In this document: in pieces, positions 484 to 9,643 of the stretch
Layout: every line of letters starts with the position of its first letter
Numbering within the stretch: the first letter of the stretch is position 1
Assembly (NCBI GenBank): GCA_903834765.1
Contig: CAILKE010000044.1
Span: 1-37,984 of the forward strand
Reading direction: 5' to 3'
DNA length: 37,984 nucleotides
Origin: an uncultured Bacteroidota bacterium
GTDB taxonomy: Bacteria; Bacteroidota; Bacteroidia; B-17B0; Aurantibacillaceae
The notes under the pieces: generated by a model
Databases searched by the model: none
Seen by the model: the letters and a program-made list of their open reading frames with translations, nothing else
What the model was told of the DNA's origin: nothing
Program-made: the position numbers and the translations under genes

Positions 484-547
484 AAAGATACACTTGTTTA
501 AAAATTTAATTGAATTTAAAATCAGCACTTTAATAGTTGTTAACCAT
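484..547 (+). repeat. Copy 1 of a 63-bp upstream direct repeat
   Basis: This sequence, from AAAGATACAC to GTTAACCA, recurs in the same orientation at 1401-1463. I count about five substitutions and possibly a one-base length difference. Copy 1 ends about 47 bp before the ATG of the DnaA/Hda-like gene, just upstream of its predicted promoter. Two copies upstream of two adjacent genes suggest a shared regulatory element, or a duplication bracketing the first gene. Confidence 0.75.
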
Positions 548-550
548 AGT

Positions 551-579
551 TTTTGTAAAATAGATATGGTCTAAATTTG
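551..579 (+). promoter_or_regulatory. Predicted Bacteroidota-type promoter of the DnaA/Hda-like gene
   Basis: TAAATTTG at 572-579 matches the TAnnTTTG -7 element. TTTTG at about 551-555 lies roughly 16 bp upstream, slightly short of the usual 17-20 bp spacing to the -33 box. The ATG at 594 would leave a leader of only about 5-10 nt. Confidence 0.5.
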
Positions 580-593
580 TATGAAGAATAAGC

Positions 594-1367
594 ATGAATT
601 TTTTAGAGCTCCTTAATACAAAACCGAATAGAAATTTAACTTTTGGAAATTATTTCAATAGTCAGAGTGATATTACAAATATTTATCCTGATAAAGATTT
701 TTCAAAACACTTTTTAGTTGTATCTGGCAAAAGGGGGAGCGGTGTCACACATTTATTAAGTGCATTATGCAACACCTATCTGTATGGAGGCCAAAAGGCT
801 ATTTACATCACAGCCCAATCATTAATATACGTCAATTCCTTATTGAAAACAGATGATGATTATAATTTATTTTTTTACCATCTGTCTCAACATGAATTAA
901 TAGTAATTGATAACCTCCAATTTTTTTATAAGAAATCAGTAAAACATACTCAATTCTTAATGCAAATTATACATTATACCAAACTAAATAAAGTCCTTTT
1001 GGTGTTAGGATGCAGTGAACTTAATAAAGATATTACTAAATCTAAGAAACTAATGGAAGGATTAAAAATTAAACGCCTTGATTTAAAAGAACTATCCAGT
1101 TATGATGTATTTGTAATTTTAAAAGGCTTATGTAGTATTGAAGACCAAATACCTGATGCCTTGTTATATGCTATTTCAGGCTATAACGGTATGATTCAAG
1201 AACACATTCATTGTTTAATCTCAATCCGATTTAATCCTATATTAAAAATTATAATAACTAAAGAGTTGTCAATAGAAGATTTTGATGAATTATTTAATAT
1301 TAAATCATATTTCTCAAAACAACAATTTAGAAAATGCTATTATCAAACAAGAATGAATTTTATGTAG
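594..1367 (+). CDS. DnaA/Hda-like AAA+ protein with degenerate Walker motifs
   Basis: 257-aa protein laid out like the AAA+ domain of DnaA or Hda. An N-terminal LTFGNYF segment precedes a P-loop-like GKRGSGVTHL (45-54), then a Walker-B-like ELIVIDNLQFF (101-111, compare LLIDDIQFF in DnaA) and a lid region with ISGYNGMIQEHIHCL. The invariant Walker A lysine is valine (V51) and the second acidic residue of Walker B is asparagine, so ATP hydrolysis is doubtful. There is no recognisable DnaA domain IV DNA-binding helix-turn-helix; the protein ends soon after the lid with FNIKSYFSKQQF. It could be a degenerate Hda-like initiation regulator or a repurposed scaffold. It is preceded by a 63-bp repeat shared with the next gene. 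Family assignment is by motif; function is inferred only weakly. Confidence 0.65.
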   Translation: MNFLELLNTKPNRNLTFGNYFNSQSDITNIYPDKDFSKHFLVVSGKRGSGVTHLLSALCNTYLYGGQKAIYITAQSLIYVNSLLKTDDDYNLFFYHLSQHELIVIDNLQFFYKKSVKHTQFLMQIIHYTKLNKVLLVLGCSELNKDITKSKKLMEGLKIKRLDLKELSSYDVFVILKGLCSIEDQIPDALLYAISGYNGMIQEHIHCLISIRFNPILKIIITKELSIEDFDELFNIKSYFSKQQFRKCYYQTRMNFM

Positions 1368-1400
1368 TTAGATTTTTTCGATTAAAAAAAGCATATATTA

Positions 1401-1463
1401 AAAGATACACCTGTTTAAAAATTTAATTGCCTTACAAATCAGCACTTTAATAGTTGTTAACCA
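1401..1463 (+). repeat. Copy 2 of the 63-bp upstream direct repeat
   Basis: Near-identical to 484-547. Substitutions cluster in the centre (GAATTTAAA against GCCTTACAA), while both ends are conserved, including ATCAGCACTTTAATAGTTGT. It lies 34 bp downstream of the DnaA/Hda-like stop codon and about 54 bp upstream of the ATG at 1518. Confidence 0.75.
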
Positions 1464-1517
1464 AAGTATAAATGAGTAATATTTTATCCGATATTGTATT
1501 AATTAATTTTAATAAAA

Positions 1518-2492
1518 ATGAGTTTAAATTTAACCGAAATAGAACATATTGTAGCTAAAACTGAAGAGTTAGTCGTTAACAAACAGTTTTTAAAAGTACT
1601 TCATAATGAATCTAATTACGTTATTAATCATACTTTTAAAATACGGTTGAGTAAATGGTTAAAGTTTTTTAACGATCGTTACAATTTAAATTATTACATC
1701 TATTCAAATACAATTTACGTATTGTTTGAAGCTTGTCTTCAAAATGAATTATTTAAAAATCAAACAGAACATGAGTTTGAACAAAGTCTTTGTTTTTATG
1801 ATAAAATTATTAATCATCCTTATTTAAAAAATCCATTCCATTTTAACCACGCTAAGCAAATTCTTGGATTGGCACTTATTTATGGTAAATATGGAAGTAT
1901 GCAAATCAATTCATTTAAAGATGCATTAGAAAAAATAAAAACAGAAATTTCTGAAAATACGCTTCATGATTTTTTCAAATGTTTATTTGTAAAGGGTGAA
2001 TACCCAATATTGTTTCCAATAAATCCAACTCAATTCAACGAGTCAGAATTAGAATTATTGATGAATAGTATTGCCTCTAAAACAAATCTAATTAATCAAA
2101 AAAGTAAGTATGAATTAAATTCTCAAGTAAAAGCAATTAAGTATTTTTTTGAACAAATGGATATAGAAATGATTGATGCTTTTCTTTCTGATGAATACAC
2201 ATACCAAAATTCAGAAAAGAAAGAGTTTTTATATGAATTATCATTAGTATTTGAACAATTTCAAGAGGCTGGAGATGCTTATTTAATAGCCTTTGAAGGA
2301 ACTTGTAATTCATGCATCAAAGGTAAATTTGGATATACCTTTGTGGGGAATGTAAGTCATCATTACATCAGTATTATTTTTGATATAAAAGATGATAAAA
2401 TTGTTGATTTATACGATTGCGCATCCTTTAAAAACAGAATTGGAAACTTAGAATTAAACAAGAAGTTAAACATCAATTTATTTAATTTATAA
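1518..2492 (+). CDS. Uncharacterised 324-aa protein with NTF2-like C-terminal domain
   Basis: No signal peptide is present. The first two thirds are mostly helical, rich in Lys, Asn and Phe, with no motif I recognise. The last third starts with a helix pair (IKYFFEQMDIEMIDAFL), has a cysteine pair (CNSCIKG), and ends in strands GYTFVGN, YISIIFDIKDDKIVDLYDC. That order of helices, then a long strand sheet ending in DDKIVDLYDC, resembles small NTF2/SnoaL-like domains common in Bacteroidota hypothetical proteins; this is inference from pattern. The gene lies 12 bp upstream of the archaemetzincin gene and is probably co-transcribed with it. Its upstream region carries the second copy of the 63-bp repeat found before the DnaA/Hda-like gene, so the two genes may share regulation. 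Function unknown. Confidence 0.65.
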   Translation: MSLNLTEIEHIVAKTEELVVNKQFLKVLHNESNYVINHTFKIRLSKWLKFFNDRYNLNYYIYSNTIYVLFEACLQNELFKNQTEHEFEQSLCFYDKIINHPYLKNPFHFNHAKQILGLALIYGKYGSMQINSFKDALEKIKTEISENTLHDFFKCLFVKGEYPILFPINPTQFNESELELLMNSIASKTNLINQKSKYELNSQVKAIKYFFEQMDIEMIDAFLSDEYTYQNSEKKEFLYELSLVFEQFQEAGDAYLIAFEGTCNSCIKGKFGYTFVGNVSHHYISIIFDIKDDKIVDLYDCASFKNRIGNLELNKKLNINLFNL

Positions 2493-2504
2493 TAATAAAG
2501 TAGT

Positions 2505-3158
2505 ATGAATTATCTTAAAAATACATATATAGTTTTTATCATTTTTTGTTTTTATTTAAATACTGATGCTCAACAAAAAAAATTAAATCAAAAAATAAAT
2601 ATTGATAAAACAATCGTCTTAAAAAAGATAAAACCATCAATCATTATTATCCAACCCTTTAATGGTATACCAAATGCACACGTGTTATATATTTATAACA
2701 AATTGAAACTTATATTCCCCCAAGTAGTTTTAAATAAATCTATACCCTTGCCAAAACGCGCCTATTTTAAACCAAGAAATCGCTATAAAGCTGATACACT
2801 AAATTTAATTTTAAAAGAAAGAACAAAAAATGGATGTGTAACTATTGGGCTAACTAATAAAGACATCAGTACTAAAAACGAAAAAATACCTGACTGGGGC
2901 GTTATGGGATTATCAATTTTGCCAGGAAAAGCTTGCACTGTTTCGACGTTTCGCTTATCAAAAAAAAATACTGAAGAACAATACTTTAAAATTGCTATAC
3001 ATGAATTAGGTCACACCCAAGGGCTATATCATTGCCCAGATAAATTATGTATGATGACCGCTGCTGAAGGGAAAAATAATACAGATAAGGAAAAAGGATT
3101 TTGCGAAAAGTGTAAAGCATTTTTAGAAAAAAAGGGTTGGAACTTAAAAGATTTATAA
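2505..3158 (+). CDS. Secreted archaemetzincin-like zinc metalloprotease
   Basis: 217 aa with an N-terminal signal peptide (hydrophobic core IVFIIFCFYL, likely cleavage after TDA at 20-22). The catalytic zinc signature HELGHTQGLYH spans 166-176 (ligands H166, H170, H176; catalytic E167). It is followed directly by C177, CMM at 182-184 and CEKC at 200-203. That HExxHxxGxxHC, CxM, CxxC arrangement is the diagnostic double zinc site of archaemetzincins (peptidase family M54). The gap from the CxM methionine to the CxxC is 15 residues, close to the family's 17. Family members are usually cytoplasmic; the signal peptide here points to the periplasm or outside. The substrate is unknown. It lies 12 bp after the preceding gene, suggesting an operon. 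Confidence 0.85.
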   Translation: MNYLKNTYIVFIIFCFYLNTDAQQKKLNQKINIDKTIVLKKIKPSIIIIQPFNGIPNAHVLYIYNKLKLIFPQVVLNKSIPLPKRAYFKPRNRYKADTLNLILKERTKNGCVTIGLTNKDISTKNEKIPDWGVMGLSILPGKACTVSTFRLSKKNTEEQYFKIAIHELGHTQGLYHCPDKLCMMTAAEGKNNTDKEKGFCEKCKAFLEKKGWNLKDL

Positions 3159-6607: not shown

Positions 6608-7663
6608 ATGCCTCCTCCAAGCGAAGCCGCTTTACGTTATGCCATAATAGATCGTTGTTTAACCAACATTTATAAACCATTCCCGAAAATGGATGATTTA
6701 AAGTATGCTATTGAACTCGATCTTAAAACTTCTGTTTCTACAGCTACTATCCAAAAAGATATAGCTCAAATGAAAAAAGGAGATGATGAAGGGGGTTATA
6801 ATGCCCCCATAAAATTTAAACGATCAAACCAAGGGTATTATTATGATTTAGAAAAGTTTCCTGATTTTACAATTCGTTCATTAGGATTAAATGAAAAAGA
6901 GTCGGAGGCTATTGAATTAGCAGCAAGTGTGCTTCAGCATTTTAAAGGGATTAAAGTAAACGATTCTTACAACCAAGCCATTGATAAATTATTTTCATCG
7001 CTTAATATTAAAAAATCTGATAAAGATAAAAACTTCACGAATGCTATTCAACCAGAGGAAACTACCTACATGCGTGGCATGGAACATTTTGAAACATTAG
7101 TCAATAGTATCAAGAAAAAAATACCTGTGTCATTTATTCATTATTCGTATGATAAAAAATTGTTTAAGTCAATTATCATACACCCCTATTTGATGAAAGA
7201 GAGTAATAAACGTTGGTATTTAGTTGGATATTCAGAAGAACATAAGGAAGTTCGATATTTTGGCTTAGATCGTATTTATGATCCTATTCTGATTGGCAAA
7301 GAATTTAAAGAAAATAGTGGCGATGATTTACGTAATTTATTTGATAATAAAATTGGGTTAAGCAATATAAAGGCTCATAATAAAAACAACGAACCTGAAT
7401 TAATTACATTGTGGGTTAGCAGAACAATGGCTAATTATATTAAATCGATGCCTTTACATAAATCTCAAACGTATAAAGAGTATGACGGGGCAGGAGAAAT
7501 AATTGTGACAATTAATGTTGTACCAACAACCGAACTAATATCTATGATAATGTCTTATAGCGAACACATGACGCTAATACATCCAAAATGGTTATGCAAA
7601 AAAATTGAAGATAAATTAAATTTATCTTTATTAAAATATAATAGAAATCTTGGACATGAATAA
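6608..7663 (+). CDS. WYL-domain transcriptional regulator
   Basis: 351 aa. An N-terminal winged-helix region covers about residues 8-75 (YAIIDRCLTN, then VSTATIQKDIAQMK as recognition helix, then the wing ending GYYYDLEKF). A central helical linker follows, then a WYL domain at about 160-230 with HPYLMKESNKRWYLVGYSE and the following EVRYFGLDRI, and a C-terminal WCX-like extension. WYL proteins sense ligands, often nucleic acids or nucleotides, and regulate stress, DNA repair and defence genes. The stop codon overlaps the next gene's ATG by 8 bp, so the two are translationally coupled. The ligand and target operon are not evident, but the DUF932/AAA+ unit 0.7 kb downstream is a candidate target. 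Confidence 0.85.
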   Translation: MPPPSEAALRYAIIDRCLTNIYKPFPKMDDLKYAIELDLKTSVSTATIQKDIAQMKKGDDEGGYNAPIKFKRSNQGYYYDLEKFPDFTIRSLGLNEKESEAIELAASVLQHFKGIKVNDSYNQAIDKLFSSLNIKKSDKDKNFTNAIQPEETTYMRGMEHFETLVNSIKKKIPVSFIHYSYDKKLFKSIIIHPYLMKESNKRWYLVGYSEEHKEVRYFGLDRIYDPILIGKEFKENSGDDLRNLFDNKIGLSNIKAHNKNNEPELITLWVSRTMANYIKSMPLHKSQTYKEYDGAGEIIVTINVVPTTELISMIMSYSEHMTLIHPKWLCKKIEDKLNLSLLKYNRNLGHE

Positions 7664-8382: not shown

Positions 8383-8793
8383 ATGAAAACACAAAAGACA
8401 AAATTTATCATCCTACAAGTTTTAGCAATCCTAACAATTAATTACTTAATACTAATTGATGAAGGATTTATATTTAAAACACATTGGAAACCTACATTCA
8501 TTTTTGCTCTTACCTTTTTCCACTTAGGAGTTTTTAGTTCGCTTTATGCAACTATCATTTCTAAATCCATTTCTAGTGAAAAAGAAAATTTCCTGTTCAA
8601 TTTCAATATGTTTTTTTATTTAAGTTTTGTTGGCTTATTACTTTATCATAATTGCCAAGTACAATCAAATAACCTTATTTCATATTACGGCATTGGTCTA
8701 TTTATGCTCTTTAATTCAATCGTTGTTTTATTTGAAACATTCGAATCCTATAAAAAATATAAATTGTCTTTATTAATAAATGCTAAAAACTAA
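8383..8793 (+). CDS. Small four-helix membrane protein
   Basis: 136 aa with four hydrophobic segments: FIILQVLAILTINYLILI (8-25), FIFALTFFHLGVFSSLYATI (about 36-55), FNMFFYLSFVGLLLYH (about 70-85) and GIGLFMLFNSIVVLFETF (about 98-115). There is no lipobox or cleavable signal. The family is not recognised. It is the first gene of a new transcription unit, and its stop lies 7 bp before the preferred ATG of the DUF932 gene, so co-transcription is very likely. It might anchor the DUF932/AAA+ proteins at the membrane, but nothing in the sequence proves that. Confidence 0.65.
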   Translation: MKTQKTKFIILQVLAILTINYLILIDEGFIFKTHWKPTFIFALTFFHLGVFSSLYATIISKSISSEKENFLFNFNMFFYLSFVGLLLYHNCQVQSNNLISYYGIGLFMLFNSIVVLFETFESYKKYKLSLLINAKN

Positions 8794-8800
8794 AAAAATC

Positions 8801-9643
8801 ATGAGAACAGATCTTCAATCAACTATTAAATGGGATATTAGGCTTGAACCAGTTACAATTAACAGTTACCTCAACACAGGAAAAAAAGCCATCATTAGAA
8901 ACGATAACAATCAACTATTAAGTATTGTTGGTAAACATTACGAACCAATAACAAATTCGCAACTATTAGAATTTACTGATAAACTAACCAAAACTGGTGA
9001 ATTCAAATTAAAAGGATTTGACGAATTAAATAATGGAAAAATAATTCTCGCTTTTTTACAAAACACAAATCCGAACTTAACAATAAATGGCTGCAAAAAT
9101 GAAGAATACTTATTTATAGGAAATTCGTTTGATGGCACTAAACGCTTTCATATTGGAACAGCTTCAAATCTTATTAGATGTGCTAATCAATTTTCATCTT
9201 CCTTAAAAGTATTTTCAAAAAAACATACTACATATACCGACCTCAATGAATTTGAAATTAATAACATTATTAAAAGCTATAAAACTAAAAAAGGAATCTT
9301 ATATGAATCCTTTAACGGAATGGAAAGCGTGAGAGTTGATGAAAGTGCTGTTAATCAATTAATAAAGGAAATTTATACAATGCTTTCAAGCGATAGTAAA
9401 GCCATTAGAAAAAAAGATTGGCATAATAGCCCATCCATGCTAAATCTTCATCAGTCGATTGAACGCGAAATGAAAGATTTAGGAAATAATGCTTTTGCTT
9501 TGTTTAATGGCGTAACCTGGTACACCACTCACGAAATGAGGAAAACAGATGCTTTGCATAGTCACATAAACGGAACTGCTAATATAATCAATCAAAAAGC
9601 CTATCGCTTTTGTAATAATCTTAAAAAAATTGGTAACTCATAA
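8801..9643 (+). CDS. DUF932 (phage/plasmid-like) protein
   Basis: 280 aa from ATG 8801; an upstream in-frame ATG at 8780 overlaps the previous gene and is less likely. The layout matches DUF932: the N-terminal strand NQLLSIVGKHYEPITNSQLLEF, the central IILAFLQNTN and YLFIGNSFDGTKRFHIGT, then CANQFSS and a helical C-terminus ending in NNAFALFNGVTWYTTHEM. DUF932 proteins occur on phages, plasmids and genomic islands and have no established biochemical role. The gene is flanked by a membrane protein and an AAA+ ATPase in the same direction, which suggests one functional unit of mobile or accessory origin. Confidence 0.8.
   Translation: MRTDLQSTIKWDIRLEPVTINSYLNTGKKAIIRNDNNQLLSIVGKHYEPITNSQLLEFTDKLTKTGEFKLKGFDELNNGKIILAFLQNTNPNLTINGCKNEEYLFIGNSFDGTKRFHIGTASNLIRCANQFSSSLKVFSKKHTTYTDLNEFEINNIIKSYKTKKGILYESFNGMESVRVDESAVNQLIKEIYTMLSSDSKAIRKKDWHNSPSMLNLHQSIEREMKDLGNNAFALFNGVTWYTTHEMRKTDALHSHINGTANIINQKAYRFCNNLKKIGNS

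Follow-up and report, generated by a model that had tools for sequence, protein, structure and literature searches.

The window analysed here, a stretch of 37,984 nucleotides from an uncultured Bacteroidota bacterium, contains a 63-bp element that occurs twice as a direct repeat, once upstream of a gene encoding a DnaA/Hda-like protein and once upstream of a gene encoding a protein of 324 amino acids (Table 1). The two copies are identical at 58 of 63 bases, start 917 bp apart and end 47 nt (copy 1) and 54 nt (copy 2) before the ATG codons at positions 594 and 1518, respectively. One mismatch is located at copy position 11 and the other four at positions 30, 31, 34 and 35, so that the centre is the least conserved part of the element. 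A 24-nt core was found twice in the window, with 0.00 occurrences expected from 100 shuffles, and the window repeat is genuine. An earlier sequence-only reading of this DNA, which had described a near-identical element in the same orientation ahead of both genes, with its ends better conserved than its centre, was accurate on both points, and the ten copies described below show the same layout.

Table 1. Features of the repeat-bearing locus, in window coordinates.
Feature	Position	Strand	Remarks
Element copy 1	484..546	+	left block ~487-511, linker 512-519, right block 520-545
917-bp unit: copy 1 + DnaA-like gene	484..1400	+	absent from the single-copy allele of G010
Imperfect dyad TTAATA-GT-TGTTAA, right block of copy 1	530..543	+	modest evidence
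-7 box TAAATTTG	572..579	+	26 nt after copy 1 right block; predicted transcription start ~584
DnaA/Hda-like gene, 257 aa	594..1367	+	PF00308 1.7e-06, above cut-off
Element copy 2	1401..1463	+	right block 1437-1462, dyad 1447-1460
Octamer CGATATTG	1489..1496	+	at box position after copy 2; 3/6 letters of -7 consensus
324-aa gene	1518..2492	+	profile searches: no recognised family
Archaemetzincin-like (M54) protease gene	2505..3158	+	comes after the 324-aa gene (window, G010) or what appears to be its remnant (G002)

The DnaA/Hda-like protein scored below the cut-offs of the NCBIfam DnaA and Hda models, and carries valine at the position which, from the Walker A pattern, we take to be that of the expected lysine. 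Valine or isoleucine replaced this lysine in all seven DnaA-like proteins that were aligned, and likewise in that of G447. A single-sequence structure model of the 324-aa protein was useless (mean pLDDT 39), and the M54 gene is possibly the second gene of the 324-aa unit.

Pattern and DNA searches of the own genome (3.6 Mb) identified a single further good copy, at C4:188081-188142 (E 7e-14); the remaining 37 of 40 rows of the DNA search, with E 0.018 or worse (E 0.018 being the row after the C4 copy), were dropped. The own genome holds only three good copies, each shortly 5' of, and co-directional with, a gene. The third copy ends 52 bp before a gene for a DnaB-like helicase, whose product shows the DnaB C-terminal domain (PF03796, 1.7e-54) from residue 70; the product aligns to the full-length DnaB model no earlier than position 123 of 435 and so lacks most of its N-terminal domain. 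This gene has an in-frame TAG after 271 codons and is separate from the ordinary DnaB-type gene of the same genome (C21:36230, open frame of 532 aa).

A BLAST search of 100 genomes, including the own one, yielded five long matches in other genomes, of which three were in G005 and one each in G010 and G015, after 10 of 18 rows (at most 43 bits) were dropped as short AT-rich matches; 7 of the 11 matching genomes contained only such rows. The copies of G005 precede a DnaA-like gene broken by three stops, a DnaB-like fragment (28 matching aa, 86% identical) and an intact 324-aa gene, the last of these on a different contig, while the G010 copy precedes a 324-aa gene and the G015 copy a DnaA-like gene. 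The eight copies from these four genomes aligned without gaps over 100 columns, and a sequence-only DNA model built from them was run on 87 genomes of the family. All eight were recovered at 67 bits or more, and the matches listed included two new copies, G002:C4 (63.4 bits) and G037:C272 (26.2 bits, E 1.4e-5), the latter in a different genus from that of the other copies. At the loose threshold of E<=0.5, at least 83 of the 87 genomes gave some match among those listed, and everything below the G037 copy, beginning at 21 bits, was counted as noise. The G002 copy is followed by what appears to be a 324-aa gene reduced to a short remnant, and next by an M54 gene; this remnant was recognised from a DNA match to window positions 1400-1594 and from reading by eye, and tblastn of the window 324-aa protein at this site returned nothing significant. 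The G037 copy precedes a gene cut by the contig end; its product has a DnaB C-terminal domain from residue 72 and, across 116 aligned positions, is 31% identical to the DnaB-like protein of the own genome (E 1.6e-15). Several of the putatively element-driven genes look decayed, namely the DnaA-like gene and DnaB-like fragment of G005, the own DnaB-like gene and the 324-aa gene of G002.

A second model, built from all ten copies and hence including its own targets, matched 6 of the 87 family genomes at E<=0.001, with ten matches at 57 bits or more and one chance match, the weak candidate at G002:C136 (23.5 bits), which is situated inside a coding frame and was dropped. In total, ten copies are present in 6 of the 87 family genomes, one to three per genome, and all ten lie upstream of one of three families: the DnaA/Hda-like gene, the DnaB-like gene or the 324-aa gene (in one case its apparent remnant only). 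The sequence-only reading had proposed that many copies before one gene family would speak for a regulon; the distribution observed is instead one of few copies per genome before three families. Beyond the family, the ten-copy model (R2) matched 1 of 395 sampled genomes of the class at E<=1e-4, which was the own genome. The family and class searches ran under the stricter filters used for more than 40 genomes, at which weak matches are lost, and the order-level searches covered the same 87 genomes as the family. The exact core pattern matched a single record of the genome collection, a Bacteroidetes MAG contig, and no viral contig. Close relatives of P0001 or P0002, the only kind of relative that this search reaches, were not confirmed in viral contigs, and P0002 had no match in plasmids; a phage or plasmid origin was not borne out by these searches.

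Alignment of the ten copies from six genomes revealed two conserved blocks, at columns 4-28 and 37-62, separated by a variable linker of constant length. The right block followed the pattern AATCAG...AACY (columns 37-62) in all ten copies, and the register, free of gaps over 100 columns, continues beyond the 63 bp. Between copies before different genes, mean identity was 77% for the element against 37% for the spacer. Since shuffled spacers averaged 31% and none of 2000 reached 37%, the spacers appear to retain some mark of shared ancestry or of weak constraint. Among the dyads of the element, TTAATA-GT-TATTAA in the right block scored best, but 20 of 1000 column shuffles did as well. It has a single compensating change, in G037, and this was unremarkable (covariation reached by 64 of 500); the right-block dyad is, on this sequence evidence, weakly supported.

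The sequence-only reading had also considered an RNA leader, and a riboswitch or attenuator in the 5' untranslated region would fit the similar distance at which each ATG lies downstream of the element. This proposal failed, however, in that the consensus RNA fold of eight copies contained no predicted pair, the only match in the window at the Rfam gathering threshold was a tRNA, and in copy 1 a -7 box is located between the element and the ATG; we consider an RNA leader scarcely credible. Only slightly less remote is a MITE-like mobile repeat, or a recombinase site such as an integron attC carrying genes. Units do occur at different loci and gene order does change at the element, but the own genome contains three good copies and the others one to three, all 5' of genes and in one orientation relative to the gene, rather than the many copies in both orientations that characterise MITE or IS elements. 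Integron-type cassette arrays consist of gene units separated by a short direct repeat, and the element units resemble them in their short direct repeat and their presence/absence alleles. They differ in that the element is 5' of each gene, non-palindromic, promoter-like and limited to one to three copies. No folding palindromic recombination site was found in the RNA consensus of eight copies or in three copies folded as DNA, none of which formed a hairpin; a hairpin or attC-like site was ruled out on these folds.

The region between the element and the start codons was compared with promoters of the Bacteroidota primary sigma factor, for which PMC6847099 gives the -7 consensus TAHHTTTG and a distance of 4-5 nt from the box to the transcription start. 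At 26 nt past column 62, the six DnaA- and DnaB-type copies carry the octamers TAAATTTG (twice), TAATTTTG, TAATTTAG, TAATTTTA and TACTTTAG, which match the consensus TANNTTTG in five or six of six letters; the G037 copy, from the other genus, has a 5/6 box at exactly this distance. Matches to TANNTTTG in these six copies peaked at offset 26 (33 of 36 letters, reached in 0 of 5000 shuffles), and this peak persisted after removal of the near-duplicate DnaA copy of G005 (27 of 30 letters, 0 of 5000 shuffles). At the same offset, the four 324-type copies carry CGATATTG (three copies) and CAATTTTA, with three or four consensus letters; CGATATTG after copy 2 is identical in G010 and G002. Taken alone, these four copies, including window copy 2, scored 13 of 24 letters, a value reached by 4654 of 5000 shuffles, and their best offset was 6 rather than 26. 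The high score of all ten copies together (46 of 60 letters, 0 of 5000 shuffles) is due to the six DnaA- and DnaB-type copies, and the fixed spacing of the 324-type copies is therefore only an absence of gaps. Within the window, a sigma-A type -7 box was found after copy 1 and not after copy 2.

Start codons lie 14-21 nt beyond the 26-nt box position. For copy 1, the predicted transcription start is at about 584, with a leader of about 10 nt; for copy 2 a start near 1501 would be a guess by analogy. In F. psychrophilum, the median length of the 5' UTR is 24 nt (PMC9723704). A -33 element TTTG was present in the 26-nt spacer of only 2 of the 10 copies, 16 and 12 nt before the box, and a sigma-70 scan returned promoter-like sites no more often than in shuffles. 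Compared with the primary sigma-factor promoters of F. johnsoniae and F. psychrophilum, the six DnaA- and DnaB-type copies are alike in their box (5-6/6 letters) and plausible start-codon distance; the differences are the long conserved upstream region at fixed spacing, the scarcity of the -33 TTTG and its differing distances, and the off-consensus boxes (3-4/6 letters) of the 324-type copies. In the DnaA- and DnaB-type units this promoter geometry is well supported; its extension to the 324-aa unit is by analogy only.

Judged from sequence, the 63-bp element is probably the upstream regulatory part of a promoter that the dispersed genes of a small regulon have in common, their units being exchanged at the element. 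The proposed members are the DnaA/Hda-like gene, the N-terminally shortened DnaB-like helicase gene and the 324-aa gene, together with the archaemetzincin gene next to it. An activator with sequence specificity, possibly dimeric, would bind from about -97 to -39 (with the dyad near -47) and recruit RNA polymerase to promoters with no recognisable -33 element, giving rise to short-leader mRNAs; the 324-type promoter would work alike despite its off-consensus box. In activator-dependent regulons of dispersed genes, unrelated genes at a number of loci are preceded by similar upstream regions. The element conforms to this pattern in that it precedes unrelated genes at separate loci, in one orientation and with constant geometry (10 of 10 copies, ungapped over 100 columns), and departs from it in that the set is very small (one to three sites per genome), seen in one family only and composed of accessory targets. 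Of the coregulating binding site that the sequence-only reading had suggested, the part concerning shared control gained indirect support from the recurrence of the same three families at different loci in two genera and from the fixed box distance of the DnaA- and DnaB-type copies; in the case of the 324-aa gene, the box remained unsupported. Duplication of a single promoter, with its spacing inherited, could also explain the fixed distance. Among the open-licence PMC papers listed by literature searches, none was recognisable as describing such a regulon. Most likely the element marks a small regulon of an ordinary kind, new and unnamed. It connects genes that share no operon or annotation link, two of the three being replication-protein look-alikes. 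If the regulon is true, joint expression is predicted, and the two blocks with their spacing would provide a DNA handle for the regulator and for further members in uncultured Bacteroidota.

The genes themselves are not bound to the element, since relatives of both occur without it: no element was found upstream of the DnaA-like loci of G002, G058, G113, G044, G028, G447, G246 and G418, or upstream of the 324-aa gene of G015. A partial second homologue of the 324-aa protein is encoded at G015:C24:19973-20365, near a WYL regulator gene and with no element match there. Contig G037:C199, from another genus, encodes a protein homologous to the 324-aa protein in its C-terminal part, and carries a VWA-like gene together with a DUF6717 gene (8.5e-21); the gene beside this pair resembles, by eye, the 341-aa MNVWLVRT gene of G005.

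Comparison of alleles revealed how the units are arranged. G010 matches the window at 21-546 and 1400-3145, and in G010 the two matches overlap by just the element; it represents the same locus, bordered on the left by a DUF6717 gene and on the right by the M54 and 324-aa genes, with a single element and the DnaA-like gene absent. This is the single-copy allele that the sequence-only reading had named as a mark of a cassette. G005:C57 matches the window at 18-1469, past the second element, and then continues into the DnaB-like fragment instead of the 324-aa gene, while in G005:C78, G002:C4 and the own C4 the homology to copy 2 begins at its left edge. The own copy 2 is nearest to the own copy 1 and to the second copy of G005 (0.92 each), the other 324-type copies being at 0.76-0.85, and yet its gene and downstream octamer are of the 324 type; this mixture is as expected from a recombination joint within the element.

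It is fairly unlikely, though worth weighing, that the element is a cassette scar only, that is, a passive by-product of the duplication or insertion of element and DnaA-like gene, or an old promoter copied with its flanks, with no shared regulation today. Such a scar would account for the absence from G010 of exactly one 917-bp repeat unit with its joint in the element, for the closeness of copy 2 to copy 1, for the decayed genes in several units and for the unsupported 324-type box. It is at odds with the presence of the element at separate loci (own C4, G005:C78, G002:C4, G037:C272) in always the same orientation, with the conservation of the same columns in another genus, and with the box that the DnaA- and DnaB-type copies keep at fixed spacing while the spacer diverged. 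The cassette scar that had been suggested at the outset is partly supported, by the G010 allele and by the DnaB-like fragment behind the second G005 copy. Coregulation and the exchange of cassette-like units thus each hold in part. Within the regulon proposed above, element, promoter and gene would form one unit; such units would be gained, lost and exchanged in accessory loci with joints at the element, and the tandem pair of the window would be one arrangement, probably arising from homologous recombination between elements. The single- and two-copy alleles suggest accessory-gene exchange at shared promoters without a dedicated recombinase.

To the left of copy 1, a perfect palindrome, TGACAAGCTTGTCA, is present at 413-426, between the element and the divergent DUF6717 gene (11-349). 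It is kept in G010 and one letter off in G005, and is possibly the operator of the DUF6717 gene.

The surroundings of the copies contain genes of the kinds usual in accessory or defence loci: WYL regulators, a retron-type reverse transcriptase, an ATPase of the AAA_15 type that has many PADLOC matches, and, beside the own DnaB-like gene, a RecBCD-like cluster. A WYL-domain protein encoded near some copies (own 6608-7663, G005:C78, G015:C24) might be the regulator, the element then being a defence-island operator of known type. In three genomes the same contigs also hold WYL genes; one in G005:C78 is oriented divergently to the 324-aa gene, on the far side of the element; and a WYL activator of genotoxic-stress genes is described in PMC10693628. 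Nevertheless, at E<=1e-40 the G005 WYL protein found matches in just 2 of the 6 genomes that carry the element, one of them G005 itself, and none in the own genome, G002, G010 or G037; it was matched in 19 family genomes without the element. We regard this identification as improbable, and a WYL protein as the common factor was not supported by this co-occurrence.

As to function, we infer that the regulon may have a role in defence or replication stress. A more specific scheme, which we put forward as decidedly doubtful, is that the regulon switches on altered versions of the host's replication proteins (a DnaA/Hda-like protein that lacks the Walker A lysine and a DnaB-like helicase from which most of the N-terminal domain is missing) together with the 324-aa protein, perhaps stopping or redirecting replication during phage attack or DNA damage, and that the element doubles as homology for shuffling units among defence-like loci.

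Further features were observed in the neighbourhoods of the copies. At G000:C4 ~179291-190491, the retron-type reverse transcriptase (PF00078 1.6e-20; PADLOC RT models to 4e-95) is encoded downstream of the DnaB-like gene and is preceded by a stretch of 176 nt that folds strongly (z -6.4), has a CCGTCGTTGC/GCAACGGCGG closing stem and resembles a retron ncRNA. Upstream, genes with RecC (Exonuc_V_gamma 2.8e-48), RecD-like and UvrD/RecB-like domains are present. In the window itself, the gene at 8780-9643 is related to the phage/plasmid-like family TIGR03299 (E 9.5e-21), though short of the family cut-off.
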